Below, one piece after another: positions 3,116-58,400 of a stretch of DNA of 64,000 nucleotides. Position numbers and translations under genes: made by a program. Source of the stretch: Protonemura montana (lineage: Eukaryota > Arthropoda > Insecta > Plecoptera > Nemouridae); contig OX387603.1 in the NCBI GenBank assembly GCA_947568835.1, positions 1,427,701 to 1,491,700 of the forward strand. The letters run 5' to 3'. How positions within the stretch are numbered: the first letter of the stretch is position 1; every line of letters begins with the position of its first letter. Under the pieces are notes generated by a model. That model searched no databases. It was given only the letters and a program-made list of their open reading frames with translations, and was not told the origin of the DNA.

Positions 3116-3209
3116 TGGAAGTCAGGTAAGCACCGTCGAGTTCTGCAATCAGCATCTCTTCTAGCGACAGAGTGGAGTTCTCTTCGGAGAAGTAAGTTGC
3201 TCACTTAGT

Positions 3210-4452
3210 TTTATTATTATAAACACTATAAAACATCTCAGAAATTGATGCCCAAACGGGGTCTCAAACCCCGATCTCCACCTGTCACGGGTGTTGTTCT
3301 AACCAATTGAGCTACTTGGACCCCGATCTCCACCTGTCGCGGGTGTTGCTCTAACCAATTGAGCTACTTGGACCCCGATCTCCACCTGTCGCGGGTGTTG
3401 CTCTAACCAATTGAGCTACTTGGACCCCGATCTCCACCTGTCGCGGGTGTTGCTCTAACCAATTGAGCTACTTGGACCCCGATCTCCACCTGTCGCGGGT
3501 GTTGCTCTAACCAATTGAGCTACTTGGACCCCGATCTCCACCTGTCGCGGGTGTTGCTCTAACCAATTGAGCTACTTGGACCCCGATCTCCACCTGTCAC
3601 GGGTGTTGCTCTAACCAATTGAGCTACTTGGACCCCGATCTCCACCTGTCGCGGGTGTTGCTCTAACCAATTGAGCTACTTGGACCCCGATCTCCACCTG
3701 TCGCGGGTGTTGCTCTAACCAATTGAGCTACTTGGACCCCGATCTCCACCTGTCACGGGTGTTGCTCTAACCAATTGAGCTACTTGGACCCTGATCTCCA
3801 CCTGTCGCGGGTTTTGCTCTAACCAATTGAGCTACTTGGACCCCGATCTCCACCAGTCGCGGGTGTTGCTCTAACCAATTGAGCTACTCGAACCCCGATC
3901 TCCACCTGTCACGGGTGTTGCTCTAACCAATTGAGCTACTTGGACCCCGATCTCCACCTGTCGCGGGTGTTGCTCTAACCAATTAAGCTACTTGAACCCC
4001 GATCTCCACCTGTCGTGGGTGTTGCTCTAACCAATTGAGCTACTTGGACCCCGATCTCCACCTGTCACGGGTGTTGCTCTAACCAATTGAGCTACTTGGA
4101 CCCCGATCTCCACCTGTCACGGGTGTTGCTCTAACCAATTGAGCTACTTAGACCCCGATCTCCACCTGTCACGGGTGTTGCTCTAACCAATTGAGCTACT
4201 TGGACCCCGATCTCCACCTGTCGCGGGTGTTGCTCTAACCAATTAAGCTACTTGAACCCCGATCTCCACCTGTCGTGGGTGTTGCTCTAACCAATTGAGC
4301 TACTTGGACCCCGATCTCCACCTGTCACGGGTGTTGCTCTAACCAATTGAGCTACTTGGACCCCGATCTCCACCTGTCACGGGTGTTGCTCTAACCAATT
4401 GAGCTACTTGGACACTGACTTTTTGAGACGGTTTTAGTGTTGATAATAATAA
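3210..4452 (-). mobile_element. TIR element carrying a 22-unit tRNA-like tandem array (copy 1)
   Basis: Left inverted terminus 3210-3257 (TTATTATTATAAACACTATA ... TTGATGCCCAAACGGG) and right terminus 4417-4452 (TTTTTGAGACGGTTTTAGTG then TTGATAATAATAA) are reverse-complementary. The interior is about 22 copies of a 52-bp unit. On the minus strand each unit is the 5' part of a tRNA: acceptor strand GTCCAAG, box A-like D arm TAGCTCAATTGGTTAGAGC, anticodon-arm-like hairpin ACACC/GGTGG, start of the T arm. Only the copy next to the left terminus adds a T arm and 3' acceptor side. Imperfect direct repeats of about 55 bases (3150-3212, 4460-4520; both contain AGCGACAGAGT and GCTCACTTA) flank the element. 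Confidence 0.8.
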
Positions 4453-5014
4453 AATACGCTTCTCTACTAGCGACAGAGTAAAGTTCTCCCTAAGGGAGCA
4501 AGATGCTCACTTATTTTTTACAAACAGCAGCAAAGCAATAATGTTTCCGTATGTTTAATGGACTCCATCAACGAGCCTGCACTTTCCACACTTCGTTTTG
4601 CCCCATCGATCTACGCGCGTGTAAAGATAGACCGATCCAGCGAGTCGTGTTCTTTCCATTCTATTTCCACCAATTCGTACAAGAAGCTAAACGATTTATG
4701 ACAGAGATCATGTTCGAAAGTGTAAAACGGAGCGAGAAAAAAACCCCGGCGGCGCTCGTATCCCGGGGCAACGAGCTTCCAAACACGACGCATGTTAAAA
4801 CCCGGCGGCGCGGAAGAAACAAAAACAAAAATAAGCCACTTATTTTATTTACATCGCGTCGCTTTTCACGGCTGGTTAACATTTGTTCACGTTCTTCGCT
4901 CGCGAGTCTCGACACACTTCACCAACACGTGTTTTCAGGGGGGGGGGGCGCTGTCGGCGTCGGCGTCGATAGCAAGACCCAGTCACACGGTCAAATCGTA
5001 GGTCCTCCTTGACT
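4453..5014. other. Unassigned spacer
   Basis: A short open frame (4551-5012, +) has no recognisable domain and overlaps low-complexity sequence including a G9 run at 4939-4947. I see no gene here. Confidence 0.4.
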
Positions 5015-5894
5015 GGAGGTCGTGGGGTATGAACCACATCATGGCTGTGCTTGCAGCGTGCCAAGAACCCACTCTGTCCCATCGCGCCCTGCCTAACCTG
5101 GACCCTGCACTCATGTCCCATGTCTCGTGTCCCAGCCTTGCCTGGACCCTGCCCCCATGTCCCATGTCTCGTGTCCCAGCCTTGCCTGGACCCTGCCCCC
5201 ATGTCCCATGTCTCGTGTCCCATGTCCCAGCCTTGCCTGGACCCTGCCCCATGTCCCATGACCCGTGTTCCAGCCTTGCCTGGACCCTGCCCCCATGTCC
5301 CATGTCCCAGCCTTGCCTGGACCCTGCCCCCATGTCCCGTGTCCCAGCTTTGCCTGGACCCTGCCCCCATGTCCCATGTCCCATGTCCCATGTCCCATGT
5401 CCCATGTCCCATGTCCCAGCCTTGCCTGGACCCTGCCCCCATGTCCCATGTCCCAGCCTTGCCTGGACCCTGCCCCCATGTCCCGTGTCCCAGCCTTGCC
5501 TGGACCCTGCCCCCATGTCCCATGTTCCAGCCTTGCCAGGACCCTGCCCCCATGTCCCATGTCCCATGTCCCATGTCCCATGTCCCATGTCCCAGCCTTG
5601 CCTGGACCCTGCCCCCATGTCCCATGTCCCAGCCTTGCCTGGACCCTGCCCCCATGTCCCGTGTCCCAGCCTTGCCTGGACCCTGCCCCCATGTCCCATG
5701 TTCCAGCCTTGCCAGGACCCTGCCCCCATGTCCCGTGTCCCAGCCTTGCCTGGACCCTGCCCCCATGTCCCTGACTTGCCTGGACCCTGCCCCCATATCA
5801 CATGTCTGGCGTCCCAGCCTTGCCAGGAGGTCGTGGGGTATGAACCACACCATGGCTGTGCTTGCAACGTGCCAAGAACCCACCCTGTCCCATC
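5015..5894 (-). repeat. Inverted second copy of the minisatellite, bounded by 69-bp direct repeats
   Basis: The array 5084-5825 is the reverse complement of the family at 1-882 (CAGCCTTGCCTGGACCCTGC with CATGTCCC blocks). It is bounded by near-identical direct repeats at 5015-5083 and 5826-5894, both starting GGAGGTCGTGGGGTATGAAC and ending in CTGTCCCATC, with about three mismatches. The array is therefore embedded in, or expanded from, a larger repeat unit rather than sitting in unique DNA. Confidence 0.9.
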
Positions 5895-6483: not shown

Positions 6484-7210
6484 GTGGAGGCGATTATTAT
6501 TATTATTTGTGGTGTTTAACGACGCACTGTTTTGACATCTAGCTATGCCGCACTGGTCTAATGGCGTCGGTGAATGAGTGTATGATGATGATGTACCTAA
6601 CCTAGCCTAGAAGGGGGAAGGGGAAACCTGGTGCCGGCACGTAGCCTACTCCTGTCGAAGACCAAGGGGACCACCGGCTTAACGTCCCTTCCGAAGGACG
6701 GTACAACGCGAACAACAGGATTCCTCCACAAATCCATGCTGTCGAGAGGTTGATAAGCAAGGCGAGTGAAGTTGCTGTACCAACTTTCATCCCTCCAACC
6801 TCTCTACCGAACAGAACTGGTCATGTGTATGATAGTCACCCATCCAATACCTGACCCAGCGCAGTGTTGCTTAACTTTCATCCCTCCAACCTCTCTCCCG
6901 AACAGAACTGGTCATGTGTATGATGGTCACCCATCCAATACCTGACCCAGCGCAGTGTTGCTTAACTTTCATCCCTCCAACCTCTCTCCCGAACAGAACT
7001 GGTCATGTGTATGATGGTCACCCATCCAATACCTGACTCAGCGCAGTGTTGTTTAACTTTCATCCCTCCAACCTCTCTCCCGAACAGAACTGGTCATGTG
7101 TATGATGGTCACCCATCCAATACCTGACTCAGCGCAGTGTTGCTTAACTTCAGTGATCTAATGAGAACCGGTGTTTCCAACACGACCAACTGTTCGGTGT
7201 GGAGGCGATT
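6484..7210 (-). mobile_element. 5S-rRNA-derived SINE, full length with 12-bp target duplication (copy A)
   Basis: The minus-strand 5' end (from 7198) matches 5S rRNA: an ACACCGGTTCTC block, then GATCAC, GAAGTTAAGCAAC, and TATTGGATGGGTGACC, the box C-like part of the 5S internal control region. The 91-bp segment from TTAAGCAAC through a GGTTGGAGGGATGAAAG block is present four times. A body of about 290 bases and an A/T-rich tail (TATTATTATTATT on the plus strand, 6493-6507) follow. GTGGAGGCGATT occurs exactly at 6484-6495 and 7199-7210, a target-site duplication proving retrotransposition. The family resembles the SINE3 (5S-headed) class. Confidence 0.92.
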
Positions 7211-7517: not shown

Positions 7518-7880
7518 GGTTAGGTTAGGTCGGGTCTGGTCGGGTCGGGTCGGGTCGGGTCGGGTCGGGTCGGGTCGGGTCTGGTTAGGTTAGGTTAGGT
7601 TAGGTTAGGTTAGGTTAGGTTAGGTTAGGTTAGGTTAGGTTAGGTTAGGTTAGGTTAGGTTAGGTTAGGTTAGGTTAGGTTAGGTTAGGTTAGGTTAGGT
7701 TAGGTTAGGTTCGGTTCGGTTTGGTTCGGTTCGGTTCGGTTCGGTTCGGTTCGGTTCGGTTCGGTTCGGTTCGGTTCTGTTAGGTTAGGTTAGGTTAGGT
7801 TAGGTTAGGTTAGGTTAGGTTAGGTGAGATTAGGTTAGGTTGGGTTTGATAAGGCTAGGCTAGGTTAGGTAAGATGGGGT
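7518..7880 (+). repeat. Interstitial TTAGG telomere-like array with TCGGG and TTCGG blocks
   Basis: Pentamer array organised in homogeneous blocks: TCGGG about 7531-7578, TTAGG about 7583-7712, TTCGG about 7711-7776, TTAGG about 7777-7835, then degenerate variants. TTAGG is the canonical insect telomere repeat. The array is flanked by unique DNA on both sides, so it is interstitial. Confidence 0.95.
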
Positions 7881-8142: not shown

Positions 8143-8655
8143 GGTAGGTTAGGTAAGGTTAGGTTAGGTTAGGTTAGGTTAGGTTAGGTGAGGTTAGGTT
8201 AGGTTAGGTTAGGTTAGATAAGGTTAGGTTAGGTTAGGTTAGGTTGGGTTAGGTTAAGTTGGGTTGGGTTGGGTTGGGTTGGGTTGGGTTGGGTTAGGTT
8301 AGGTTAGGTTGGGTTGGGTTGGGTTGGGTTGGGTTGGGTTGGGTTGGGTTGGGTTGGGTTGGGTTGGGTTGGGTTGGGTTGGGTTGGGTTGGGTTGGGTT
8401 AGGTTGGGTTAGGTTGAGTTGGGTTAGGTTGGGTTAGGTTGGGTTGGGTTGGGTTGGGTTGGGTTGGGTTGGGTTGGGTTGGGTTGGGTTGGGTTGGGTT
8501 AGGTTAGGTTGGGTTGGGTTGGGTTGGGTTAGGTTGGGTTGGGTTGGGTTGGGTTGGGTTGGGTTGGGTTGGGTTGGGTTGGGTTGGGTTGGGTTGGGTT
8601 GGGTTGGGTTGGGTTGGGTTGGGTTGGGTTGGGTTGGGTTGGGCTGGGTTGGAAA
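8143..8655 (+). repeat. Telomere-variant array, TTAGG then mostly TTGGG
   Basis: TTAGG pentamers (8143-8260) pass into a long, highly homogeneous TTGGG tract with occasional TTAGG units at about 8290, 8400-8440, 8500-8510 and 8530. Pentamers keep all three frames open on both strands, so the apparent Gly-Trp-Val and Asn-Pro-Thr frames are artefacts. Confidence 0.95.
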
Positions 8656-9574: not shown

Positions 9575-10060
9575 GTCACTTTTATTGTATTCAAAGCGCA
9601 AATAATTGTCATAAATCCGGCTATTGAGAAGTTGGGCATCGAACCAGTGACCCCTTTGACTAATAAGCGAGTAGCGACCAAAGCTCATAAAAAATCTGTA
9701 TGCTTGCTTGGAGCTAAAAAAATAAATAAATCATGAATGTGTCAAATGACTGTTGCTAGTTTTAATAGCGTTCTACCCTCGCTTGTTCGGAGACTGACTT
9801 GTCTTGTAAGGAAAGCAATCAAATGAAATGTCTTGGTGATAATTCCTGGAATAATAAGCTAAGACATTTGGGAAACCAGATACTCCAGGAATTATTTACA
9901 CAACTTGATGCAGATTTCAGACAAGTTCCCTGGCAAACAAAGACTTCATCCTTTGTTGGGCGCTGTCACAATTCTTGGGAACATTTCTTGAAATCACTCA
10001 ACCACTGGACCGAAAGTTATCAATTTGTTATTTTATCGAAACAAATCCCATGTTTCATAT
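9575..10060. other. Unassigned spacer
   Basis: Short open frames only. A GGGCATCGAACCAGTGACCC segment near 9638 faintly resembles a tRNA T-arm relic. No gene called. Confidence 0.35.
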
Positions 10061-10795
10061 TTAACAACGCTATAACCGTCTCAAAAATTGATGCCCAAAC
10101 GGGGACTCGAACCCCGATCTTCACCTGTCGCGGGTGTTGCTCTAACCAATTGAGCTACTTGGACCCCGATCTCCACCTGTCGCGGGTGTTGCTCTAACCA
10201 ATTGAGCTACTTGGACCCCGATCTCCGCCTGTCGCGGGTGTTGCTCTAACCAATTGAGCTACTTGGACCCCGATCTCCGCCTGTCGCGGGTGTTGCTCTA
10301 ACCAATTGAGCTACTTGGACCCCGATCTCCACCTGTCGTGGGTGTTGCTCTAACCAATTGAGCTACTTGGACCCCGATCTCCACCTGTCGCGGGTGTTGC
10401 TCTAACCAATTGAGCTACTTGGACCCCGATCTCCACCTGTCGCGGGTGTTGCTCTAACCAATTGAGCTACTTGGACCCCGATCTCCACCTGTCGCGGGTG
10501 TTGCTCTAACCAATTGAGCTACTTGGACCCCGATCTCCACCTGTCGCGGGTGTTGCTCTAACCAATTGAGCTACTTGAACCCCGATCTCCACCTGTCGCG
10601 GGTGTTGCTCTAACCAATTGAGCTACTTGGACCCCGATCTCCACCTGTCGCGGGTGTTGCTCTAACCAATTGAGCTACTTGGACCCCGATCTCCACCTGT
10701 CACCGGTGTTATAATTTTTGAGATGGTTATAGTGTTGATAATAATAAAATACCCCGCGCATTGCAAGCGTTTGCAATTTAAATGAGATTTCATCT
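10061..10795 (-). mobile_element. TIR element with about 12 tRNA-like units (copy 2)
   Basis: Left terminus 10061-10100 (AACAACGCTATAACCGTCTC ... TTGATGCCCAAAC) and right terminus 10713-10795 (TTTTTGAGATGGTTATAGTG ... TTGCAAGCGTTTGCAATTTA) are inverted copies. About 12 of the 52-bp tRNA-like units lie between. The leftmost unit retains a perfect T arm (GGGGACTCGAACCCC on the plus strand, a box B complement). The units are more homogeneous than in copy 1, consistent with later expansion. Confidence 0.85.
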
Positions 10796-14108: not shown

Positions 14109-15090
14109 TAACATTAACGTTGTTTCTCTACCTAGAACCTGCACTCAACGGTTTAACATTGACGTTGTTTCTCTACCTAGAACCTACACTCAACGGTTTA
14201 ACATTAACGTTCTGTCTCTACCTAGAACCTGCACTCAACGGTTTAACATTGACGTTGTTTCTCTACCTCGAACCTACACACTCAACGGTTTAACATTGAC
14301 GTTCTGTCTCTACCTAGAACCTGCACACTCAACGGTTTAACATTGACGTTCTGTCTCTACCTAGAACCTGCACACACAACGGTTTAACATTAACGTTCTG
14401 CCTCTACCTAGAACCTGCACACTCAACGGTTTAACATTAACGTTCTGTCTCTACCTAGAACCTGCACACACAACGGTTTAACATTAACGTTCTGCCTCTA
14501 CCTAGAACCTGCACACTCAACGGTTTAACATTAACGTTCTGTCTCTACCTACAACCTGCACACTCAACGGTTTAACATTGACGTTCTGTCTCTACCTTGA
14601 ACCTGCACACTCAACGGTTTAACATTAACGTTCTGTCTCTACCTAGAACCTGCACACTCAACGGTTTAACATTAACGTTCTGTCTCTACCTACAACCTGC
14701 ACACTCAACGGTTTAACATTGACGTTCTGTCTCTACCTAGAACCTGCACACTCAACGGTTTAACATTGACGTTCTGTCTCTACCTAGAACCTGCACACTC
14801 AACGGTTTAACATTAACGTTCTGTCTCTACCTAGAACCTGCACACTCAACGGTTTAACATTGACGTTCTGTCTCTACCTAGAACCTGCACACTCAACGGT
14901 TTAACATTGACGTTCTGTCTCTACCTAGAACCTGCACACTCAACGGTTTAACATTAACGTTCTGTCTCTACCTAGAACCTGCACACTCAACGGTTTAACA
15001 TTAACGTTCTGTCTCTACCTAGAACCTGCACACTCAACGGTTTAACATTAACGTTCTGTCTCTACCTAGAACCTGCACACTCAACGGCAT
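14109..15090 (+). repeat. 47-bp tandem repeat, about 21 units
   Basis: The unit contains GGTTTAACATTAACGTTCTG, TCTCTACCTAGAACCTGCAC and ACTCAAC. The first units are about 45 bp (CTGCACTCAAC without the extra CAC) and use a TTGACGTTGTTTC variant; later units are 47 bp. Point variants (TTAACG/TTGACG, TAGAACC/TACAACC) are shared by non-adjacent units. Confidence 0.95.
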
Positions 15091-15625: not shown

Positions 15626-16084
15626 AATAAAAATTGGTAAAAAAAATCCTGAATTATGAACTGATATAGCCCAATTGCACACGTTTATGACCAAATTTCA
15701 CGATTTCTATAAAGATTTACGCTGGCAAAATGAGAAATCCCAGCCAGCCAGAAACAAAACTAATTCAGAGCTTTTGTAAAACGTTACTTAAGGCAAGATG
15801 CACGCTGTAATGGTTGATTGTGACGAACCTAGCCGAGCCTAAACGGGAGCTGGAGTGTAACAGCACGGGCTTAACGTTCTTTCCACGGCGTTGACTGCGA
15901 CAACAGGTTCACCAACCCAACACATGAATCAATGAATATCACATTAGTTACACATGGCTGAACATCGATTGATTAATGAGCTCCTAAGAGACTGGGTTGG
16001 CGCGTCAGACTAGCGGGGAGTTTCACCCTCGACACCACGCTCTAAACTTGGTAGTCAATTTAATTATATTTCAATTATATACAG
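15626..16084. other. Unassigned spacer
   Basis: No open frame or repeat of note. Around 15826-15900 there are faint matches to the 5S SINE body (GGCTTAACGTTCTTTCC). Confidence 0.35.
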
Positions 16085-16560
16085 CATAGGATCCAGCCAG
16101 CTGATCTCAAATAACCTGGATAGAGCATAGGATCCAGTCAGCTGATCTCAAATAACATGGATAGAGCATAGGATCCAGCCAGCTGATCTCAAATAACCTG
16201 GATAGAGCATAGGATCCAGCCAGCTGATCTCAAATAACCTGGATAGAGCATAGGATCCAGCCAGCTGATCTCAAATAACCTGGATAGAGCATAGGATCCA
16301 GCCAGCTGATCTCAAATAACCTGGATAGAGCATAGGATCCAGCCAGCTGATCTCAAATAACCTGGATAGAGCATAGGATCCAGCCAGCTGATCTCAAATA
16401 ACCTGGATAGAGCATAGGATCCAGCCAGCTGATCTCAAATAACCTGGATAGAGTATAGGATCCAGCCAGCTGATCTCAAATAACCTGGATAGAGCATAGA
16501 ATCCAGCCAGCTGATCTCAAATAACCTGGAAAGAGCAAAGGATCCAGTCAGCTGATCAAC
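16085..16560 (-). repeat. 41-bp tandem repeat, array 1, inverted orientation
   Basis: About 11.5 units of the reverse complement of the 41-bp unit GATCCTATGCTCTATCCAGG plus TTATTTGAGATCAGCTGGCTG. The units are nearly identical. Confidence 0.95.
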
Positions 16561-18964: not shown

Positions 18965-20757
18965 TCAAATGACCATCATACACATGACCAGTTCTGTTCG
19001 GGAGAGAGGTTGGAGGGATGAAAGTTATGCAACACTGCGCTGGGTCAGGTATTGGATGGGTGACCATCATACACATGACCAGTTCTGTTCGGGAGAGAGG
19101 TTGGAGGGACGAAAGTTAAGCAACACTGCGCTGGGTCAGGTATTGGATGGGTGAACATCATACACATGACCAGTTCTGTTCGGGAGAGAGGTTGGAGGGA
19201 TGAAAGTTAAGCAACACTGCGCTGGGTCAGGTATTGGATGGGTGACCATCATACACATGACCAGTTCTGTTCGGGAGAGAGGTTGGAGGGATGAAAGTTA
19301 AGCAACACTGCGCTGGGTCAGGTATTGGATGGGTGAACATCATACACATGACCAGTTCTGTTCGGGAGAGAGGTTGGAGGGATGAAAGTTAAGCAACACT
19401 GCGCTGAGTCAGGTATTGGATGGGTGAACATCATACACATGACCAGTTCTGTTCGGGAGAGAGGTTGGAGGGATGAAAGTTAAGCAACACTGCGCTGGGT
19501 CAGGTATTGGATGGGTGACCATCATACACATGACCAGTTCTGTTCGGGAGAGAGGTTGGAGGGATGAAAGTTAAGCAACACTGCGCTGGGTCAGGTATTG
19601 GATGGGTGACCATCATACACATGACCAGTTCTGTTCGGGAGAGAGGTTGGAGGGATGAAAGTTAAGCAACACTGCACTGGGTCAGGTATTGGATGGGTGA
19701 CCATCATACACATGACCAGTTCTGTTCGGGAGAGAGGTTGGAGGGATGAAAGTTAAGCAACACTGCGCTGAGTCAGGTATTGGATGGGTGACCATCATAC
19801 ACATGACCAGTTCTGTTCGGGAGAGAGGTTGGAGGGATGAAAGTTAAGCAACACTGCGCTGAGTCAGGTATTGGATGGGTGACCATCATACACATGACCA
19901 GTTCTGTTCGGGAGAGAGATTGGAGGGATGATAGTTAAGCAACACTGCACTGAGTCAGGTATTGGATGGGTGACCATCATACACATGACCAGTTCTGTTC
20001 GGGAGAGAGGTTGGAGGGATGAAAGTTAAGCAACACTGCGCTGGGTCAGGTATTGGATGGGTGACCATCATACACATGACCAGTTCTGTTCGGGAGAGAG
20101 GTTGGAGGGATGAAAGTTAAGCAACACTGTGCTGAGTCAGGTATTGGATGGGTGACCATCATACACATGATCAGTTCTGTTCGGGAGAGAGATTGGAGGG
20201 ATGATAGTTAAGCAACACTACGCTGGGTAAGGTATTGGATGGGTGACCATCATACACATGATCAGTTCTGTTCGGGAGAGAGGTTGGAGGGATGAAAGTT
20301 AAGCAACACTGCGCTGGGACAGGTATTGGATGGGTGACCATCATACACATGACCAGTTCTGTTCGGGAGAGAGGTTATAGGGATGAAAGTTAAGCAACAC
20401 TGCGCTGGGACAGGTATTGGATGGGTGACCATCATACACATGACCAGTCCTGTTCGGGAGAGAGGTTGGAGGGATGAAAGTTAGTACAGCAACTTCACTC
20501 GCCTTGCTTATCAACCTCTCGACAGCATGGATTTGTAGAGGAATCCTGTTGTTCGCGTTGTACCGTCCTTCGGAAGGGACGTTAAGCCGGTGGTCCCCTT
20601 GGTCTTCGACAGGAGTAGGCTACGTGCCGGCACCGGGTTTCCCCTGCTCCCTTCTAGGCTAGGTTAGGTTCATCATCATCCACTCATTCACCGACGCCAT
20701 TAGACCAGTGCCACATGACCAGATGTCAAAACAGTGCGTCGTTAAACACCACAAATC
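18965..20757 (+). mobile_element. 5S SINE with a 17-unit 91-bp internal array (copy B)
   Basis: The unit runs GGTATTGGATGGGTGACCAT through CACATGACCAGTTCTGTTCG to GATGAAAGTTAAGCAACACT and is repeated about 17 times from 18970 to about 20490. It is followed by the normal SINE body (GTACAGCAACTTCACTCGCC ...) and tail to about 20757 (GTCGTTAAACACCACAAAT). Each unit contains the 5S-like internal control region, so the array is a string of promoter-like segments upstream of one body. The 5' 5S head (ACACCGGTTCTC block) is absent here. Confidence 0.92.
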
Positions 20758-21820: not shown

Positions 21821-21987
21821 TTGAAATCTGATTCAAATTGCAAACGCTTGCAAGGCGCGGGGTATTTTATTATCATGATCACTAGAACCGTCTCAAAAAT
21901 TGATGCCCAAACGCGGACATTTTTGGCAGCATTTGGTATGTACCCGTTTTGGCATCAATTTTTGGGACAATTTTCGTGTTCATAATA
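21821..21987. mobile_element. TIR element without tRNA array (short copy)
   Basis: Left terminus TTGAAATCTGATTCAAATTG, then CAAACGCTTGCA, GGCGCGGGGTATTTTATTAT, ACTAGAACCGTCTC and TTGATGCCCAAACG, as in the array-bearing elements. The right side is its inverted counterpart (TTTTGGCATCAATTTTTGGG). There are only about 40 bases between; no tRNA-like unit. Confidence 0.8.
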
Positions 21988-22154
21988 CAAAAAAAAACAG
22001 TTAAGTTCCTTGAATTCCCTGATAAAAATTTGAGGTGCTGTAATCGAAATTATTTCAAAGAAATAAAAAAAAAATTTTATGTAATTTTTTGAATGTTTTT
22101 ACTTTGGTTAAGTTGGTACGTGTGGTGCAGAGTTAAGCGAGCGATTAAAAGACC

Positions 22155-22830: not shown

Positions 22831-22970
22831 TATTTTATTATTATTAACACTAAAACCGTCTCAAAAATTGATGCCCAAATGGGAACATTTAATACAGTTA
22901 TAGTGTTGATAATGCTAAAATACCCCGCGCATTGCAAGCGTTTGCAATTTAAATGAAGATTTCATCAATC
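22831..22970. mobile_element. TIR element without tRNA array (minimal copy)
   Basis: TATTATTATTAACACTAAAA with CCGTCTC and TTGATGCCCAAATGGG, followed within 15 bases by the inverted terminus (GTTATAGTGTTGATAATGCT, CCCCGCGCATTGCAAGCG). About 140 bp in all, a near-solo TIR pair. Confidence 0.8.
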
Positions 22971-23290: not shown

Positions 23291-23798
23291 TGATAGCATC
23301 ACACCGGCCACATGGAGGCGTCTAACAATTCCATCCCCGCTTGTACATAGCCACGTGAAACAAGCAAGCTGTTGAAACGCCTCTCTCCAGGAGCCAGCGT
23401 ATTGCTATGGGATTGTTGCTACACTTCAAGACACCGGCCACGTGAAGGCGGCTAACAATTCCATCCCCGCTTGTACATAGCCACGTGAAACAAGCAAGCT
23501 GTTGAAACGCCTCTCTCCAGGAGCCAGCGTATTGCTATGGGATTGTTGCTACACTTCAAGACACCGGCCACGTGAAGGCGTCTAACAATTCCATCCCCGC
23601 TTGTACATAGCCACGTGAAACAAGCAAGCTGTTGAAACGCCTCTCTCCAGGAGCCAGCGTATTGCTATGGGATTGTTGCTACACTTCAAGACACCGGCCA
23701 CGTGAAGGCGTCTAACAATTCCATCCCCGCTTGTACATAGCCACGTGAAACAAGCAAGCTGTTGAAACGCCTCTCTCCAGGAGCCAGCGTATTGCTAT
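23291..23798 (+). repeat. 130-bp tandem repeat, array 1 (about 4 units)
   Basis: The unit starts GACACCGGCCACGTGAAGGC and includes CCCGCTTGTACATAGCCACG and CTCTCTCCAGGAGCCAGCGT; starts at 23430, 23560 and 23690. The array breaks off inside a unit at TATTGCTAT (23798). Confidence 0.95.
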
Positions 23799-25438
23799 AT
23801 GAATGATGATTTCTGTCTATCCGGCCCAACACTCCATCATCGGGAGGTGTTAAGACAGATAAAAAATGCCACGAGACTCTTTCAACTCCCTGATCACCAG
23901 CAAAGCGAAGATGAGCGACCACCCAAAATGTATTCAGCTGTCACCTTAATCCCACTTAACCTCGAAAATAGATCGTCAAGCGATGAAGTTCTGTGCCCCA
24001 ACCACAGGGCCCTGTCCAAACAAGCGGAACAGCCGTGCATTTAGCTAGAACATTTAATTGTATTACAAGCATATAGGGGACCGAGGACCGATGCGCTGGG
24101 GTTGAAGTGTCAATGAAAGAGCTGCTGGTCCCTAAGATGAGGAACAAAGACCCGTCTGCGGTGGCCTGAGAAACCTGGCGCTCCAATGTGTGAGAGAGAG
24201 GCGTCAGAAATTATTTACTTTTGTCTATTTTGACAGTTGTAACTCAACTGGAACTTGTATAGGAGGTACAGTCGGTGTTCGAAGCAAAGGTGAGTTCGTT
24301 TTTCTGGGCGCGTGAGCTCGGGTATCGAATAGGTGGACTTGGATTTGACGGTTCGGCGTCGTTGAACGAATTTGGCGATCCGGAATAATCCCATAGCAAT
24401 ACGCTGGCTGCTGGAGAGAGGCGTTTGGACAGCTAGCGCGTACTTTTGACAATGTAGTGATATCACTGATAGGTTTAGACAGCTGTTAGTTCGAATGAGT
24501 TTGGTGGGTGTTCGATTGGGCGGGGTCACGGTCTTGTCAAGCAGGGTAACATGTTAGGTATCCGTATATCGCAGTCTAGCGGGACAATGTCGCTGTTTTG
24601 ATTGGTATTCGTTTTATCTTCCAGATTCATCTCTGTCATTATGTGCAATGCCAGTTGATGGTTGCCAGGACTTCATGGGATCTCACTTGGTCTTGGGATG
24701 ATTGTTAAAATAGCGAATACTGACCAATTTGATGTTTGTGTGTCTGAGATTGAAATTGAATTCGAAGTTTCTTTTAATTTTTAGCGGTAATGTGGCAGTT
24801 TGCTTGTTAATTTTAGCAAAATTTCAAAGTAGATTGTGTTTATACGGAAACTACGAAGCAGCTATGGGTGTGAGAAGCGTCCGACTCGACCGCTTGAAAT
24901 TAAAATGGTAGTCGCGTCAAATTGCTCTGTTGTTGAGGAATGAATTATAATTCCAGACAATGTCTTCAGCCGAACATACAAACACAACTAAATAACGTCA
25001 CTTTCAGAGCCATAAGCAATTTTTAATGATTTTATCTCAAAAATATTTTAACATCGCTTTTATTTTCCCACAAAGTTGCGTCGCTCGTTCGAGGATAAAA
25101 AAACTAAACAAGATTTTACAAATCTGACAGTAAAAAGTGACAGATTGAAATCAATTTATCACCGCCTCCTCGATTCTGCTAATTCCAACGCACACTTGTT
25201 GACTTTCACACCCGTTCAAAGATTCGAGCACAAAATCACGTTTGAAATAACGGTCAGTTGTTCTGACAATCATATGCATATGCATGTGGATTTCATTAAG
25301 TTTCCTCGACCGCGGAGAATTTCGCTCCTCATATAAAGTAAGCGTCGCTCATTTAAGATAATACGTGGATTCCTTGTGATAAAACATGAGCCACAGTACG
25401 CTAATAAGACAGGACAGGATTCTCTTAAAAACCCCTGC
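23799..25438. other. Gene-poor stretch with a 130-bp repeat remnant
   Basis: Reverse-complement remnant of the 130-bp repeat at about 24383-24428 (CCATAGCAATACGCTGGCTG, then CTGGAGAGAGGCGTTT). Other open frames (23799-24044, 24215-24529, 25076-25336) have no recognised domain. Confidence 0.45.
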
Positions 25439-26215
25439 AAATTTTATTATTATGAACACTAATAACCGTCTAAGAAATTGATGCCCAAACGGGGACTCGA
25501 ACCCCGATCTCCACCTGTCGCGGGTGTTGCTCTAACCAATTGAGCTACTTGGACCCCGATCTCCACCAGTCGCAGGTGTTGCTCTAACCAATTGAGCTAC
25601 TTGGACCCCGATCTCCACCTGTCGCGGGTGTTGCTCTAACCAATTGAGCTACTTGGACCCCGATCTCCACCTGTCGCGGGTGTTGCTCTAACCAATTGAG
25701 CTACTTGGACCCCGATCTCCACCTGTCGCGGGTGTTGCTCTAACCAATTGAGCTACTTAGACCCCGATCTTCACCTGTCGCGGGTGTTGCTCTAACCAAT
25801 TGAGCTACTTGGACCCCGATCTCCACCTGTCGCGGGTGTTGCTCTAACCAATTGAGCTACTTGGACCCCGATCTCCACCTGTCACGGGTGTTTCTCTAAC
25901 CAATTGAGCTACTAGGACACTAACTTTTTGAGACAATTTTAGTGTATTTGATGAGAATGACAGATCTCCAAGGAGTAGAACCAAGAGGCTGTGAATACTC
26001 ACAGTCACTCTGATTCTAGTGATGCTATATCACGTCACAACCTGTCAATCTCGAATAACTCCAATTTGACGTAAGACGCGTTGTATATAGATTTAAAATT
26101 GCAGTTATAAAATTTGGGCATCAATTTTTGAGACGGTTATAGTGTTGATAATATTAAAATACCCTGCGCATTGCAAGCGTTTGCAATTTGAATAAGATTT
26201 CATTTAAAAACCCCC
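25439..26215 (-). mobile_element. TIR element with 8 tRNA-like units plus spacer and outer terminus (copy 3)
   Basis: Left terminus 25441-25490, array 25491-25918 (8 units of 52 bp, the first with an intact T arm), then a short inverted terminus 25922-25945 (CTTTTTGAGACAATTTTAGT). A spacer of about 130 bases (25946-26075) contains GTAGAACCAAGAGGCTGTGA. An outer inverted terminus (26113-26205) ends GCAAGCGTTTGCAATTTG. The same spacer follows the array of copy 4 at 56.09 kb, so it belongs to the element. One unit variant (CACCAGTCGCAGG) marks the second unit. Confidence 0.85.
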
Positions 26216-26861
26216 GCAAATGTTCGAGTATTATGTTTCCTTGTGTTGAACTCTACAGTGGCCGACGCCGCGAATCCCGTGACGGTTTAGGAGTCCCAAC
26301 TTTGTCGGACATCTTTAGCAATCCATCTCACCTTCTCGGCGGGATTTAATATTTCTTAACTCCTCCGGTACACGCTAGAAGAAGGTGCCCCACTGTGATC
26401 GTCTAGCACGGCTCTGCGGGTTGGACATCAGCAGCTGGCGAGGAACAAATATCTGTCGCCATCTTGAAACTCATTCTCTTCAGTTCATGGTTGGACGTCG
26501 ATGTCAATCGATGCAAGTAATTGTATGGTATAATCGATTTCACTGGCAAAATCACAAGCTTTGTTGACTCTGCCATCTTCCCATCATGGAAGTTAGCTCA
26601 CAAATAGTCAATATAGAACCGTGATTATTGCATCCTATTGAATTTGAACATTTGCAAGGATATAAATTGGTCGTGGCGCTATCACTTCCTTGCAATCGTG
26701 TCACTACCCCGCTCCCCAACCTCACATAGAAGGTTGACAATCCTTGTCAATGTTCTAGTGCTGGTGTACTGATAGGCAATGCGTAATAAAAAACTCTGAA
26801 ATTTGCATTGAAATCATAGGGACACTTTGATTTTAAGGACTCCTATACATGTTGCCAGATC
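26216..26861. other. Unassigned spacer
   Basis: Short frames only (26385-26567 +, 26552-26740 -). No gene or element recognised. Confidence 0.4.
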
Positions 26862-29537
26862 AGCTGGTTGAATCCTATGCTCTATCCAGGTTATTTGAGA
26901 TCAGCTGGCTGGATCCTATGCTCTATCCAGGTTATTTGAGATCAGCTGACTGGATCCTATGCTCTATCCAGGTTATTTGAGATCAGCTGACTGGATCCTA
27001 TGCTCTATCCAGGTTATTTGAGATCAGCTGACTGGATCCTATGCTCTATCCAGGTTATTTGAGTTCAGCTGGCTGGATCCTATGCTCTATCCAGGTTATT
27101 TGAGGTCAGCTGGCTGGATCCTGTGTTCTATCCAGGTTATTTGAGATCAGCTGGCTGGATCCTATGCTCTATCCAGGTCATATGAGATCAGCTGGCTGGA
27201 TCCTATGCTCTATCCAGGTTCTTTGAGATCAGCTGGCTGGATCCTACGCTCTATCCAGGTTATTTGAGATCAGCTGGCTGGATCCTATGCTCTATCCAGG
27301 TTATTTGAGATCAGCTGGCTGGATCCTATGCTCTATCCAGGTTATTTGAAATCAGCTGGCTGGATCCTATGCTCTATCCAGGTTATTTGAGATCAGCTGG
27401 CTGGATCCTATGCTCTATCCAGGTTATTTGAGACCAGCTGGCTGGATCCTATGCTCTATCCATGTTATTTGAGATCAGCTGGCTGGATCCTATGCTCTAT
27501 CCAGGTTATTTGAGATCAGCTGGCTGGATCTAATGCTCTATCCAGGTTATTCGAGATCAGCTGGCTGGATCCTATGCTCTATCCAGGTTATTTGAGATCA
27601 GCTGGCTGGACCCTATGCTCTATCCAGGTTATTTGAGATCAGCTGGCTGGATCCTATGCTCTATCCAGGTTATTTGAGATCAGCTGTCTGGATCCTATGC
27701 TCTATACAGGTTATTTGAGATCAGCTGGCTGGATCCTATGCTCTATCCAGGTTATTTGAGATCAGCTAGCTGGATCCTATGCTCTATCCAGGTTATTTGA
27801 GATCAGCTGGCTGGATCCTATGCTCTATCCAGGTTATTTGAGATCATCTGGCTGGATCCTATGCTCTATCCAGGTTATTTGAGATCAGCTGGCTAGATTC
27901 TTTGCTCTATCCAGGTTATTTGAGATCAGCTGGCTAGATCCTATGTTCTATCCAGGTTATTTGAGATCAGCTGGCTGGATCCTATGCTCTATCCAGGTTA
28001 TTTGAGATCAGCTGGCTGGATCCTATGCTCTATCCAGATTATTTGAGATCAGCTGGCTGGATTCTATGCTCTATCCATGTTATTTGAGATCAGCTGGCTA
28101 GATCCTATGTTCTATCCAGGTTATTTGAGATCAGCTGGCTGGATCCTATGCTCTATCCAGGTTATTTGAGATCAGCTGGCTGGATCCTATGCTCTATTCA
28201 TGTTATTTGAGATCAGCTGGCTGGATCCTATGCTCTATCCAGGTTATTTGAGATCAGCTGACTGGATCCTATGCTCTATCCATGTTATTTGAGATCAGCT
28301 GGCTGGATCCTATGCTCTATCCAGGTTATTTGAGATCAGCTGACTGGATCCTATGCTCTATCCATGTTATTTGAGATCAGCTGGCTGGATCCTATGCTCT
28401 ATCCATGTTATTTGAGATCAGCTGGCTGGATCCTATGCTCTATCTAGGTTATTTGAGATCAGCTGGCTGGATCCTATGCTCTATCCAGGTTATTTGAGAT
28501 CAGCTGACTGGATCCTATGCTCTATCCAGGTTATTTGAGATCAGCTGGCTGGATCCTATGCTCTATCCATGGGTTATTTGAGATCAGCTGGCTGGATCCT
28601 ATGCTCTATCCAGGTTATTTGAGATCAGCTAGCTGGATCCTATGCTCTATCCAGGTTATTTGAGATCAGCTGGCTGGCTCCTATGCTCTATCCAGGTTAT
28701 TTGAGATCAGCTGGCTGGATCCTATGCTCTATCCAGGTTATTTGAGATCAGCTGGCTGGATCCTATGCTCTATCCAGGTTATTCGAGATCAGCTGACTGG
28801 ATCCTATGCTCTATCCATGGGTTATTTGAGATCAGCTGGCTGGATCCTATACTCTATCCAGGTTATTTGAGATCAGCTGACTGGATCCTATGCTCTATCC
28901 AGGTTATTTGAGATCAGCTGACTGGATCCTATGCTCTATCTAGGTTATTTGAGATCAGCTGGCTGGATTCTATGCTCTATCCAGGTTATTCGAGATCAGC
29001 TGACTGGATCCTATGCTCTATCCATGGGTTATTTGAGATCAGCTGACTGGATCCTATGCTCTATCCATGGGTTATTTGAGATCAGCTGGCTGGATCCTAT
29101 ACTCTATCCAGGTTATTTGAGATCAGCTGACTGGATCCTATGCTCTATCCAGGTTATTTGAGATCAGCTGACTGGATCCTATGCTCTATCCAGGTTATTT
29201 GAGATCAGCTGGCTGGATCCTATGCTCTATCCAGGTTATTCGAGATCAGCTGACTGGATCCTATGCTCTATCCATGGGTTATTTGAGATCAGCTGGCTGG
29301 ATCCTATACTCTATCCAGGTTATTTGAGATCAGCTGACTGGATCCTATGCTCTATCCAGGTTATTTGAGATCAGCTGACTGGATCCTATGCTCTATCCAG
29401 GTTATTTGAGATCAGCTGGCTGGATCCTATGCTCTATCCAGGTTATTCGAGATCAGCTGACTGGATCCTATGCTCTATCCATGGGTTATTTGAGATCAGC
29501 TGGCTGGATCCTATGCTCTATCCAGGTTATTTGAGTT
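26862..29537 (+). repeat. 41-bp tandem repeat, array 2 (about 65 units)
   Basis: The unit is GATCCTATGCTCTATCCAGG followed by TTATTTGAGATCAGCTGGCTG. Most units differ by one or two bases. Recurrent variants are GCTGACTGG for GCTGGCTGG, CCATG(G)GTTAT for CCAGGTTAT (some 42-43 bp) and TTATTCGAG for TTATTTGAG. In the last 0.8 kb these variants recur in a fixed order about every four to six units, a higher-order repeat. It is inverted relative to 16085-16560. Confidence 0.95.
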
Positions 29538-29894: not shown

Positions 29895-30678
29895 TCCCCG
29901 CTTGTACATAGCCACGTGAAACAAGCAAGCTGTTGAAACGCCTCTCTCCAGGAGCCAGCGTATTGCTATGGGATTGTTGCTACACTTCAAGACACCGGCC
30001 ACGTGAAGGCGTCTAACAATTCCATCCCCGCTTGTACATAGCCACGTGAAACAAGCAAGCTGTTGAAACGCCTCTCTCCAGGAGCCAGCGTATTGCTATG
30101 GGATTGTTGCTACACTTCAAGACACCGGCCACGTGAAGGCGTCTAACAATTCCATCCCCGCTTGTACATAGCCACGTGAAACAAGCAAGCTGTTGAAACG
30201 CCTCTCTCCAGGAGCCAGCGTATTGCTATGGGATTGTTGCTACACTTCAAGACACCGGCCACGTGAAGGCGTCTAACAATTCCATCCCCGCTTGTACATA
30301 GCCACGTGAAACAAGCAAGCTGTTGAAACGCCTCTCTCCAGGAGCCAGCGTATTGCTATGGGATTGTTGCTACACTTCAAGACACCAGCCACGTGAAGGC
30401 GTCTAACAATTCCATCCCCGCTTGTACATAGCCACGTGAAACAAGCAAGCTGTTGAAACGCCTCTCTCCAGCAGCCAGCGTATTGCTATGGGATTGTTGC
30501 TACACTTCAAGACACCGGCCACGTGAAGGCGTCTAACAATTCCATCCCCGCTTGTACATAGCCACGTGAAACAAGCAAGCTGTTGAAACGCCTCTCTCCA
30601 GGAGCCAGCGTATTGCTATGGGATTGTTGCTACACTTCAAGACACCGGCCACGTGAAGGCGTCTAACAATTCCATCCC
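29895..30678 (+). repeat. 130-bp tandem repeat, array 2 (6 units)
   Basis: Same unit and orientation as 23291-23798, almost invariant (one AGCAGCCAGCG and one GACACCAGCC variant). It starts mid-unit at CCCCGCTTGTACATAGCC and ends at CAATTCCATCCCC. Confidence 0.95.
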
Positions 30679-37591: not shown

Positions 37592-40500
37592 CTAGCTGCG
37601 GTTTGCACGATTTCCCCAGCCGCGGCGGTGCGTGTCCTTGTACTCGTCCATCGATCGCGACCGTTGCAGCGATTCCTCGTCGTCTTCCTCTACGCGTCGC
37701 TCCATCTCCGCTTGCTCCGCCTCCGACTTGCGCGACGCGGCATCTTCTGCCATCCATGCCGGGAGCTGCGGCCCCGACGGAGACTGTCCTGCCGGGAAGC
37801 TGCACAAAACAGTATTTATTTATTTGTGGTGTTTAACGACGCACTGTTTTGACATCTGGCCATGCGGCACTGGTCTAATGGCGTCGGTGAATGAGTGGAT
37901 GATGATGAACCTAACCTAGCATAGAAGAGAGGAGGGGAAACCCGGTGCCGGCACGTAGCCTACTCCTGTCGAAGAGCACCAAGGGGACCACCGGCTTAAC
38001 GTCCCTTCCGAAGGACGGTACAACGTGAACAACAGGATTCCTCCACAAATCCATGCTGTCGAGAGGTTGATAAGCAAGGCGAGTGAAGTTGCTGCACTAA
38101 CTTTCATCCCTCCAACCTCTCTCCCAAACAGAACTGGTCATGTGTATGATGGTCACCCATCCAATACCTGACTCAGCGCAGTGTTGCTTAACTTTCATCC
38201 CTCCAACCTCTCTCCCGAACAGAACTGGTCATGTGTATGATGGTCACCCATCCAATACCTGACTCAGCTCAGTGTTGCTTAACTTCGGTGATCTCACGAG
38301 AACCGGTGTTTCCAACACACCAAACCATTTGGTTTGTCCAAACAGGCGGTGACGTTGGAGAAGTCTCGGGGATCCAGGATGAGTCATGCGGTGACAGGAC
38401 TTGGAATTGCTAAATTGGGAAGTTTTCTGTAAGGGTTGCCGTGCTCATAATGCAAAGCGCCACCAGAGTGAAAAACGGGCTTGAGAATCAATCTCCAAAT
38501 ATATTTTTCCCATTGTTTTGGAAAATTTGTACGTTGGGAGTTGACAGGATGCTGGATAATCTTGGGGGAAAGAGAATTGGAAAACACAACGTGACAATTC
38601 TAATTGGTGTCTTGAATGAAAATAGCTGGAAGGATATTAAAACGTTATGATAGTTTTTAGACTCATGTCTACTTGATCTAAACTTAGCACTAGTTTTGAC
38701 AAAAGCTATTTCAACTGAGTTTCGAATGCTAAGTGAAGAAAAACTAAATTTCCCTGCCAAAAATTTGCCTGGAAATTTAGTTGTTCTTCACTTAGCATTC
38801 AAAACCCAGTTGAAATAGTTTTTGTCAATATTAAAACATTGTTTCTGTGTTTGGTTGGAAGGGTGAGCCTAATGGTCCAAGCAAACCAGTCTTCCTGCCA
38901 GTGCCTAGGTAAAATCTACATAAGATCAGGACTCCAAAACATTGAGCCTTGAAAACTGTGAATTTGAAAATCAGAACGGCTGATATTCTTTGACCAATGG
39001 ATTTCTTTACGCCAGGAACCTTCGTGAAAGTGTCAATCTCGATTTCTAAGAGAATTACAGAGCCCGATCGTTTGCTAGACTTACTCTCCAACTTTAGCCC
39101 GCTGTTCGTAGAACTCATCGACGGTCATCGTGGGCAGGCTCGGGTATCCGGCGCCGTAGATTTTCTTCTGTATCTCGTCTCGGGTGATAATTATCGGCTG
39201 CAAGGGTTTCTGCTGGACCCCAAACCTGCAAAAATATAACTTAACTATAAGGACTGCTCTTACCCTTGAAGAAGTAACTAGTATATGTTACGAAACGTCA
39301 GGAAATTTAGTTGTTCTTCACTTGGCATTCATAACCCAGTTCAAATAGTTTTTGTTAAAACTAGCGCTAAGTTTACATCAAGTAGACATGAGTCTAAAAA
39401 CAATCTTAACAGCAATATTTAACAAAAGGGTAGATAAGAGATTTCAAATGCAAAGTTCAAATATTTCCAGGAAATTGAATCCAAATTGATCCAAATTGGT
39501 CAGGAAATTTTGTTGTTCTTTACTTAACATTCAAACCCCAGTTGAAATAGTTTTTGTCAAAACTAGTGCTAAGTTTACATCAAGTAGACATGAGTCTGGA
39601 AACTATCATATTGGTCTGTTCAGTAGAGTAGAGCCAACATACACAACAAAAGATTGGGATGTTGAATCAGAGACTTTGAATGTCGATTGATAAACTTGCA
39701 TTTGGTCCTTTGCAACAATTCGTAACAATCACAGATATCGATTGAGATCTAGTTCTCCATTTTGGCAAAAAAAAACTTTTAGAATCTTTGCTTTCTACGC
39801 TTATCTAGCCAGGTAATTTTCTAGACTTACCTGCTGAGCACATGGTATTGAAGCTAACAAGTATAAAAACCAACACTTGCCAAGCGGGCAGGTACAAACC
39901 TGGCCTTGCGTTCTTCCGCAGACTTGCTGCCATCCTTCTGCAAACGCTTCATGTGTTCGACCATTGGTTTCTCTCCATCGATTGCTTCGAGCTCCTCTAA
40001 AGCATTGTGTGCGTAAGACTTAATCATAGTAATGTTATAATCGCGTCTAACATCGTCATCGGCTGACTGTGAAGCCATCAAGATCTTTAACTCTGCAACG
40101 TGTTGTTCAAATTCTTTCTTTTCTTTGAAGCGTTGTATCTTCATGTTGCGTTTCTGCACTAAATTTGTAATGTTAAGCACTTTATCTTCAGCTGTAACTT
40201 CTGCAACTTCATTTGATGGTTCAGGTACATCGTATTCTATAATACCATAGTTCTTACAACGGTTTAAAAAGTCTTTGAAATATATTTCGGCTGTGTTTAG
40301 TATATCCATTCTATCTGATGAAGTCAAACGAAGTGTCAACGATCCTAGCAATGCTGGAAGTAAGAAAAATTTCATTTCTGCAGATGATATTTCATTGATG
40401 CTCTCGTTGGTACTAAACATTCCTACAAGTGAAATTATTTTTGTTGTTTCTTCAAGTATTTCGATAGCTCGGTGAATCATACTCTGTAAGCAAAACGATA

Positions 40501-55400: not shown

Positions 55401-58400
55401 TAATGGCCTCAGAGAATGCGAGGCTTGTACGAACCAACGTTTACCACATCCATGAATAACTTGGCTCGCTGGCGGTGAAACGAGACGGACCCCGATCGGC
55501 TAGCAACGACAGAAAGCTTCCGTTTGCAGCTGCTACTCACGTGCAACGTGTGGTAGTCTCCAGAGTCCTCTGGTGGCCTCGGCTTGCACTTTCCACAGCA
55601 GAAGTTGCAGCAACAGCAACAACAGCAACAGAAGTAGCAGCCGGTGACGATGCCGCAGAAGACAATCAGCGCCTGTCGATGCAGAGAGAAAATATGTTGA
55701 GTGTTTGTTTGAAATCTTATTAAAATTGCAAACGCTTGCAATGCGCGGGGTATTTTATTATTAACAACACTAAAACCGTCTCAAAATGCCCAAACGGGAA
55801 CTCGAACCCCGATCTCCACCTGTAGCGGGTGTTGCTCTAACCAATTGAGCTACTTGGACCCCGATCTCCACCTGTAGCGGGTGTTGCTCTAACCAAATGA
55901 GCTACTTGGACCCCGATCTCCACCTGTCGCGGGTGTCGCTCTAACCAATTGAGCTACTTGGACCCCGATCTCCACCTGTCGCGGGTGTCGCTCTAACCAA
56001 TTGAGCTACTTGGACCCCGATCTCCACCTGTCGCGGGTGTTGCTCTAACCAATTGAGCTATTTGGACACATGCTTTTTGAGACGATTTCAGTGTATTTGA
56101 TGAGAATGACAGTTCTCCAAGGAGTAGAACCAAGAGGCTGTGAATACTCACAGTCACTCTGATTCTAGTGACGCTATATCACGTCACAACTTGTCAATCT
56201 CGAATAACTCCAATTTGACGTTGGATACGTTGAATTTATTTGAAATCTTATTTAAATTGAAAACGCTTGCAATGCGCGGGGTATTTTATTATTACGAACA
56301 CTATAACCGTCTCAAAGATTTATGCCCAAAAGGGTATGTTTGTATTTTAGTAAATGTAATCGTGAAGATAGCATCTGGACATTGAGTTTAAACTCTAAAG
56401 CAGGCTAAACGGGTAGCAATGTTACTGTGGAGCAAAAATACCAGGTTACAACCAAGATCAGCTTCCTTCCTCCTTCTTTCCGTATACATCTGTAAAGTGT
56501 AAAATCGTGACGGTAACTGACCTTGCACCAGCCCGACGTAACGAGGAAGTAAGCGTTGACATTCTCCTCGCCGAACTGCTCGGCGATGTAAAGTCCAAGC
56601 GAGCCGTAGTTGTCGTAGATGTTGCGTTTGTTCAGATCGCTCAGGATCGTGTGGGCTCGATTCACCTCCTTGAACTGCAAGCGAACACGCATGCATTTTC
56701 ACGTCAGTTGATACTTCATGTTGCAAGCTGGCGGAGCCTTGCTTTAATGTTATTAACACACAAGACTGGTATGAAAACATTGAAATGCAAGTTTTTCAAA
56801 ATTCTAATCTTGTTTTTATGCAGTGTCATATTCAATTACTATCCTATTTATCCAAAGAAGTTGATTTTATTTTTATTTGAGGGGATTAACGACGCACTGT
56901 TTTGACACCAGGCCATGTGGCACTGGTCTTATGGCGTCGGTGAATGAGTGGATGATGATGAACCTAACCTAGCCTAGAAGGGAGGATGGGAAACCCGGTG
57001 CCGGCACGTAGCCTACTCTTGTCGAAGACCAAGGGGATCACCAGCTTAACGTCCCTTCCGAAGGACGGTACAACGCGAACAACAGGATTCCTCCACAAAT
57101 CCATGCTGTCGAGAGGTTGATAAGCAAGGCGAGTGAAGTTGCTGTACTAACTTTCATCCCTCCAACCTCTCTCCCGAACAGAACTGGTCATGTGTATGAT
57201 GGTCACCCATCAAATACCTGACCCAGCGCAGTGTTGCTTAACTTTCATCCCTCCCACCTCTCTCCCGAACAGAACTGGTCATGTGTATGATGGTCACCCA
57301 TCCAATACCTGACCCAGCGCAGTGTTGCTTAACTTTCATCCCTCCCACCTCTCTCCCGAACAGAACTGGTCATGTGTATGATGGTCACCCATCCAATACC
57401 TGACCCAGCGCAGTGTTGCTTAACTTTCATCCCTCCAACCTCTCTCCCAAACAGAACTGGTCATGTATATGATGGTCACCCATCCAATACCTGACCCAGC
57501 ACAGTGTTGCTTAACTTTCATCCCTCCAACCTCTCTCCCGAACAGAACTGGTCATGTGTATGATGGTCACCCATCCAATACCTGACTCAGCACAGTTTTG
57601 CTTAACTTCAGGGATCTCATGAGAACTGGTGTTTCCAACACGACAAACCTTTCGGTATAGGTACCTAGTTTTTAATGTGTTGATAGCTTTGCATGGGCTA
57701 ATCCAAGTCTAATTCAAATAGTGACAGATGCTTTGAAATAATTTTGACAGAAGAAAGATTTTAATACAAATTATATGAAATCAAATTTTTTTAAATCATC
57801 AATATTTTCATAAAACTTGTCAAACCTAACTGATAGTGAATAATTGATCCCATGGGAGGAGGACACCAAGTTGTGACAGACCTTGCAGGTATCTGAATCT
57901 TATTGATTAGTCACCGCTTGCTGAAAATAGTTTCATATAACGACGATGTAGTCTCCCCGTGTCAGCATTGCACTTGAAAACTCCGAGAGTCTCTCACCGA
58001 GCCTTGAACTAATGACCTGCCACCTCGTCAAAGTCGGGCTCGAACAAATGTTTCCTTCTCGTTTCATTCTGTGTGGATTTCATCGAGATACAACACAGCG
58101 TTGGTTTGAATCAAGAGTTCAGAGAGCAGGAGTTAAAAGGTAACGTGTGGAATGAGTGGAAAAATATTTCCTTGCTAGATATGCCCTTAATCAATACATG
58201 ATTATCACACACTTGTGCAAGACAGACTCTGTATTATATTTGAATTTATATCCTGAATTAATAATGTATAATTACTTTATGCTATTCTATTGTCTATTAC
58301 TCCTCTCACTTTATGTTATCCATGACATATTCTATAACAAACCTTACTCTTTTCTTTTGTATTGTATTGTTCAGAGAATAAAATATATGTTATTATTATT

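Follow-up and report, generated by a model that had tools for sequence, protein, structure and literature searches.

Tandem DNA from Pol III retroposons is already known, because two tandem families that come from the tRNA-related region of a SINE, Hy/Pol III of Hydromantes and Satellite 1 of Xenopus laevis, are listed in a review (PMC9659126). The 64,000-nt stretch of Protonemura montana DNA analysed here (the window) resembles them in carrying tandem DNA of such an origin. In that list both stand as independent tandem families; in the window, it is dispersed elements with ends of their own that contain the iterated, truncated tRNA segment, and a single complete tRNA borders the array on one side. 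The same review also lists the central repeats of Drosophila DINE/Helitron elements and the Tetris foldback element, in which a mobile element holds a variable tandem array or has internally repetitive ends (PMC9659126). The human tRNA VNTR at 1q23.3 shares with our arrays that it is an unstable tandem repeat containing tRNA (9-43 units with tRNA genes), but its units measure 7.3 kb and, in the portion of the source consulted, it is not described as a mobile element (PMC4041453). Galileo, like DINE/Helitron and Tetris, is a mobile element that either bears a variable tandem array or is repetitive within its ends. All three are DNA transposons, and their arrays are not known to consist of Pol III gene parts.

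With tRNA-derived SINEs, the element described here has in common a tRNA-like region that includes both an A and a B box, target duplications whose length varies and an A-rich 3′ end; it departs from them in the position of the tRNA near the 3′ end, a T-run before the 3′ end, self-complementary ends and a 48-nt leader. A second family in the window possesses the 5S head, body and tail CGTTAAACACCACAAATAA of 5S SINEs (SINE3), with a body that we take to resemble MetaSINE and, in one window copy, a clear target duplication; it differs from SINE3 in iterating a 91-bp promoter-bearing segment up to 16.6 times in the window. Among open-licence titles and abstract openings, which cover few subscription papers, we found neither a truncated tRNA promoter iterated in a foldback retroposon nor tRNA and 5S families iterating side by side. 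Within that literature, truncated-promoter arrays inside a foldback retroposon, accompanied by a 5S parallel, look new, while tandem SINE-derived DNA as such is known.

The 52-bp arrays and their tRNA-like units

TRF detected a 52-bp tandem repeat at 3.2, 10.1, 25.4 and 55.7 kb of the window, with 96-98% matches and strongly variable length: 22.0 copies at 3268..4413, 11.5 at 10111..10710, 8.0 at 25501..25918 and 5.0 at 55806..56067, all on the minus strand. ARAGORN made one tRNA call at each of the four loci, and Infernal placed one RF00005 match, also on the minus strand, in the unit adjoining the left end of each: 3249..3321 (34.1 bits), 10092..10164 (49.7 bits, E 1.2e-7), 25482..25554 (48.5 bits) and 55787..55859 (42.9 bits). 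The initial annotation had read the 52-bp unit as the 5′ two-thirds of a minus-strand tRNA, and the covariance-model search of the terminal unit bears this out, the four scores lying above the gathering score of 29. Its further description of the four loci also holds: only the unit beside the left end has the T arm and the 3′ acceptor strand, and in this complete unit the acceptor strands GTCCAAG and TTTGGGC pair. Each inner unit ends at the T stem and is followed directly by the next acceptor strand. The anticodon loop lacks U33, a base usual in tRNA anticodon loops; for this reason the unit is, as judged from its sequence, a tRNA-derived region and not a working tRNA.

The copies belong to one dispersed family, as had been supposed. 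A 35-mer spanning the unit junction gave 13,070 matches at up to two mismatches in the 258-Mb genome (reversed control, 0), corresponding to about 0.68 Mb if each match is counted once as 52 bp. The end core CGTCTCAAAAATTGATGCCCAAA had 7,244 matches genome-wide (control, 0).

Over the window and the 61 fetched loci described below, we counted 484 units in 98 chains, the shortest of 1 unit and the longest of 66; a laxer mismatch limit raised the number of units to 487. A box-A match was kept in 453 of these 487. In single-unit chains, box A was found in 32/38 and box B, at no more than one mismatch, also in 32/38; the terminal units of multi-unit chains scored 42/43 and 38/43, respectively. None of the 386 inner junctions examined contained a box B, each showing 2-6 mismatches to it. 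A run of at least four T lies 3′ of the tRNA in 36/38 single-unit and 38/43 multi-unit chains, upstream of the 3′ end of the element. Because this T-run precedes the 3′ end, transcription from the tRNA promoter should yield only a short product, different from the full-length RNA that was inserted; with the T-run present in 74/81 chains, the sequence appears to speak against a Pol III transcript spanning the element.

Element architecture, ends and mode of insertion

To delimit the elements, we mapped the 333-bp monomer of locus L060 onto the window and 61 fetched loci (L011-L072 without L036; L009, L010 and L036 overlap other analysed sequence, and L001-L008 came from a separate search). Read as RNA, the element runs from the leader through a reverse-complemented tail, the middle region and the tRNA to the tail itself. 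The leader, TTAGGATGAAATC...GCGGGG, is about 48 nt long and occurs on one side only, the middle region of about 150 nt is followed by the tRNA-like region with its A and B boxes, and the 3′ tail terminates in AATAATAAAA. Since its 3′ end recurs inside it in reverse complement, the element is largely self-complementary. If the leader end is regarded as 5′, the tRNA lies beside the 3′ tail and not at the 5′ end, and some copies have an additional inverted tRNA beside the leader. Many copies are foldbacks with differing turning points. Tail ends fall at monomer positions 276-292 (...AATAATAAAA) and leader ends at 320-333, where the reverse complement reads ATTAGGATGAAATC...; these are not tRNA ends, and the idea that the element ends are set by tRNA-end processing was rejected.

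All four array-bearing copies in the window were mapped on the minus strand. Copies 2 (10053..10794) and 3 (25441..26203) both have the tail end on the left and the leader end on the right. Flank comparison found no target duplication for copy 2; copy 3 is flanked by one of 18 bp with one mismatch, whose left copy (25425..25442) has 2 bp in common with the mapped tail end and whose right copy lies at 26204..26221. Copy 4 (55710..56330) consists of a leader end on the left, the array, the middle region and a second, partial leader/tail segment; its right end was not recognised in the monomer mapping, and it reaches at least 56330. The right termini noted initially at 25.4 and 55.7 kb are in fact an internal inverted copy of the core, reading CACTAAAATCGTCTCAAAAAG from the right in most copies, and both elements continue past it through the middle region, to 26203 and to at least 56330. 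Two short foldbacks without a tRNA array, which had also been noticed, were confirmed at 21822..21993 (leader end left, tail end right) and 22831..22966 (tail end left, leader end right).

Copy 1 (3209..4457), with 22 units and two tail-type ends, is the least typical of the four, and flank comparison found no target duplication for it. By eye, this copy is flanked by a direct repeat, imperfect and about 60 bp long (3150-3209 and 4460-4520), which has diverged too far to be a target duplication if the insertion is young. Farther out on the two sides of the same element, TRF reported complex TGGGACA-type arrays in opposite orientations (1-879 and 5097-5806).

In the window and the 61 loci together, 95 element clusters were delimited, 42 with both ends recognised and 53 missing one or both. 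One leader and one tail end were found in 37 of the 42, two tails in five and two leaders in none; the five comprise copy 1 of the window and four segmental copies of one divergent element. Target duplications with a score of at least 9 flank 23/42 two-ended copies, compared with 4/638 mispaired flanks, and at a score of at least 11 the numbers are 13/42 and 0/638. Their lengths range from 9 to 18 bp and vary between copies, single values being approximate as the search tolerated one mismatch in long duplications and let the ends shift by a few bases. No duplication at threshold was detected in the remaining 19/42, copies 1 and 2 of the window among them. The only segmental duplicates among the 42 in which both flanks are alike are the four two-tail copies, none of which (0/4) has a duplication. 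By hand count, 9/18 two-ended copies with at least two units carry one.

Cut-and-paste transposons leave duplications of fixed length and have two equivalent ends, and variable target duplications are a mark of reverse-transcribed insertion. With ends that are unequal and duplications that vary in length, cut-and-paste transposition is contradicted and a retroposon fits. We therefore consider it probable that the repeat is a short non-coding retroposon whose promoter segment was iterated and whose arrays were resized in place, a 5S family having behaved likewise. It would have inserted by target-primed reverse transcription with the help of a partner enzyme, whose own element may carry GTTATAGTGTTGTTAATAATAAAA at its 3′ end. 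The DNA-transposon-like reading of the initial annotation, according to which a non-autonomous foldback element or MITE captured a tRNA and then iterated it, could draw on inverted ends that are real, on ends that stay fixed while interiors vary and on the existence of short foldback copies. The ends are indeed inverted, but equivalent they are not, being unequal in 37/42 with the 48-nt leader on one side only, and duplications of 9-18 bp, differing from copy to copy in the 23/42 that have them, led us to reject a DNA transposon with fixed target duplications; a captured tRNA in any such transposon now seems quite improbable. Its second suggestion, a tRNA-headed SINE, comes nearer, except that the tRNA lies near the 3′ end and does not form a 5′ head. 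Animal retrozymes form tandem and inverted multimers and have variable target duplications. Tandem dimers of the 333-bp monomer (L059, L060), inverted dimers (L065, L071) and the variable duplications would suit a non-autonomous, retrozyme-like element with a Penelope-like partner; yet Rfam models of the hammerhead ribozyme gave no match in six loci at E <= 5 or in the window at E <= 1, on which a hammerhead retrozyme was rejected, and we regard a Penelope partnership as rather unlikely.

Array behaviour and a parallel 5S-derived family

A single tRNA is the simple state of the element, because 26 of the 53 chains with both natural borders consist of one unit. Segmental copies of one and the same insertion differ by whole units. 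L045, L046, L047 and L049 are paralogous segments, 93-96.5% identical over kilobases, and hold a common insertion, lacking the terminal complete tRNA unit, whose arrays agree in phase and contain 4, 6, 7 and 9 whole units. Array length has thus changed in place, at the DNA level. These four loci also have in common a divergent two-tail copy. In L048, L049 and L050, whose longest matches are 93-97% identical, one array numbers 4, 4 and 8 units and the other 7, 6 and 17. The longest array, with 66 units (L043:2422-6037), shows a higher-order pattern: one variant recurs at intervals of mostly three or four units, which is what blocks duplicated in place would produce.

Among arrays of three or more units, with segmental copies counted, units differed on average at 2.75 of 52 positions within arrays, at 2.61 between neighbours and at 3.04 between arrays. 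Local homogenisation, for which 2.75 against 3.04 is a weak signal, was set aside; the values point to little of it and to a recent common source of the units. A marker of an old subfamily, G at tRNA position 17, is present in 13/26 single units, 7/23 first, 1/23 second, 34/163 inner and 1/23 last units. Five of the seven first-unit cases lie in the segmental copies L048-L050, and the marker was withdrawn as proof of arrays moving. Some arrays may nevertheless also have moved as arrays, though the signal is weak.

By TRF and Infernal, the 91-bp arrays at 6.8, 19.0, 38.1 and 57.1 kb of the window are 5S sequence. Three of the four adjoin a 5S rRNA match (56.7, 51.0 and 47.2 bits), and the array at 19.0 kb has lost its head. 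The first lies within 6484..7210 on the minus strand, a 5S-headed SINE-like element with the array at 6782-7150, the 5S match at 7078..7198 (minus strand, Infernal) and a perfect 12-bp target duplication (7199-7210/6484-6495). On the plus strand, 18970..20483 comprises 16.6 copies without a 5′ head, followed by a SINE-like body to about 20755. The two others, both on the minus strand, combine array and 5S head at 38098..38332 (2.1 copies, 38098-38285) and 57148..57656 (5.1 copies, 57148-57608). The family layout is a 5S head, a body with CCTTCGGAAGGGACGTTAAGCCGGTGGTCCC and the tail given above. We take the 91-bp unit to contain the internal promoter region of 5S. Genome-wide, the junction pattern of the 5S array had 24,910 matches (control, 0), about 2.3 Mb if every match stands for 91 bp. 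Among copies possessing both head and tail, target duplications reach a score of at least 11 in 4/13 cases compared with 6/349 controls; the four include one pair of segmental copies, and the 13 include a copy cut by its locus edge (L014). The best match between the tRNA and 5S elements is 10 nt long (E 0.37); by this comparison, the two families are unrelated in origin and each iterated its own promoter part separately.

Several other repeats and features were noted in the window. A 41-bp minisatellite occupies 16079-16557, 26857-29535 and 31076-31383, with a candidate box-A-like stretch in its unit (GAGATCAGCTGG); two of the three arrays have one 69-bp flank stretch of 77% identity in common and nothing else. 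A 130-bp minisatellite is found at 23301-23798 and 29895-30679 with differing flanks. The left flank of a 47-bp minisatellite (14109-15087) matches 11 of 62 analysed sequences, and this repeat may adjoin a dispersed element of its own. Telomere-like 5-mer arrays (GGTTA, GGTCG, GGTTG) were detected by TRF at 7528-7870 and 8157-8652, about 1.4 Mb from the contig start; (CCTAA)n, the telomere unit of many arthropods, stands at the start of contig C16. The COX1 reading frame fits when AAA is read as lysine, at odds with the echinoderm mitochondrial code, and the mitochondrial proteins, like the telomere unit, have an arthropod look. Two long open frames on the minus strand of 41901-45009 resemble, by eye, a MULE-type transposase and a zinc-finger/FLYWCH protein. 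A hairpin at 36416-36532, where two miRNA models matched with scores well short of the gathering thresholds, is probably a mere inverted repeat.

Origin of the arrays

The arrays probably began in one abundant lineage, in which the segment from the tRNA start to the T stem was tandemly duplicated, perhaps between the imperfect 10-nt matches GTGTCCAAGT and GGGTTCGAGT (7 of 10 identical), leaving many A boxes and one B box. Growth and shrinkage by slippage or unequal exchange would have followed, favoured near chromosome ends, and the 5S-derived SINE-like family would have undergone a separate duplication of the same kind, its 91-bp unit bearing the 5S internal promoter. In a test of the microhomology, arrays occurred in 20/38 AAGT and 1/5 AGAT backgrounds (p 0.34), and this background was discarded as a predictor of arrays. 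The chromosome-end comparison was made with exact matches on one chromosome, C1, up to 27.3 Mb, some loci being segmental copies: among the matches listed, 6/11 tRNA-array loci and 16/24 5S-array loci lie in the first 2.5 Mb, compared with 17/85 core-repeat loci (p 0.02 and 3e-5, respectively).

A neutral cause for the arrays is most likely, supported by the fact that other minisatellites in the window, which have no common host element, also expanded; on this reading the extra units would bring no benefit. It is reasonably likely, and compatible with the retroposon reading, that we see ordinary subtelomeric minisatellite growth, in which any sequence with short stretches of internal homology may expand and the promoter parts of SINE-like elements, being abundant, are common substrates. 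The 41-bp arrays at three and the 130-bp arrays at two places in the window, again without a common host element, argue for it, as does the excess of arrays near one chromosome end. Against it, each of the two families with a genome-wide count consists of Pol III promoter parts, which amounts to no test as the counts covered these two alone. Selection might be added to the retroposon account if extra Pol III promoter elements raised transcription or set chromatin boundaries: two unrelated families iterated the promoter-bearing part, the box-A match was kept at the frequency given above and the 5S unit keeps its internal promoter region. Such conservation means little, because the units are too alike, and with inner tRNA units that lack a B box at 386/386 junctions and other window minisatellites that expanded as well, we hold a selective contribution to be unlikely. 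More far-reaching, and very doubtful in our view, is that two retroposon families convergently amplified their promoters as docking arrays for TFIIIC and Pol III, with promoter number selected and tunable. If true, docking arrays would raise the supply of the element's RNA or protect distal chromosome regions.

Irrespective of their cause, one genome thus contains two Pol III promoter parts, of tRNA and of 5S rRNA origin, that have turned into dispersed arrays able to expand, with 13,070 and 24,910 junction matches. The position of the tRNA near the 3′ end, with a T-run before that end, raises the question of the route by which the element is transcribed. As otherwise similar elements carry from 1 to 66 copies of the unit, it should be possible to read directly how promoter number affects transcription, mobility and chromatin. 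Finally, the arrays illustrate how a minisatellite can arise inside a retroposon, one insertion being present with 4, 6, 7 and 9 units.
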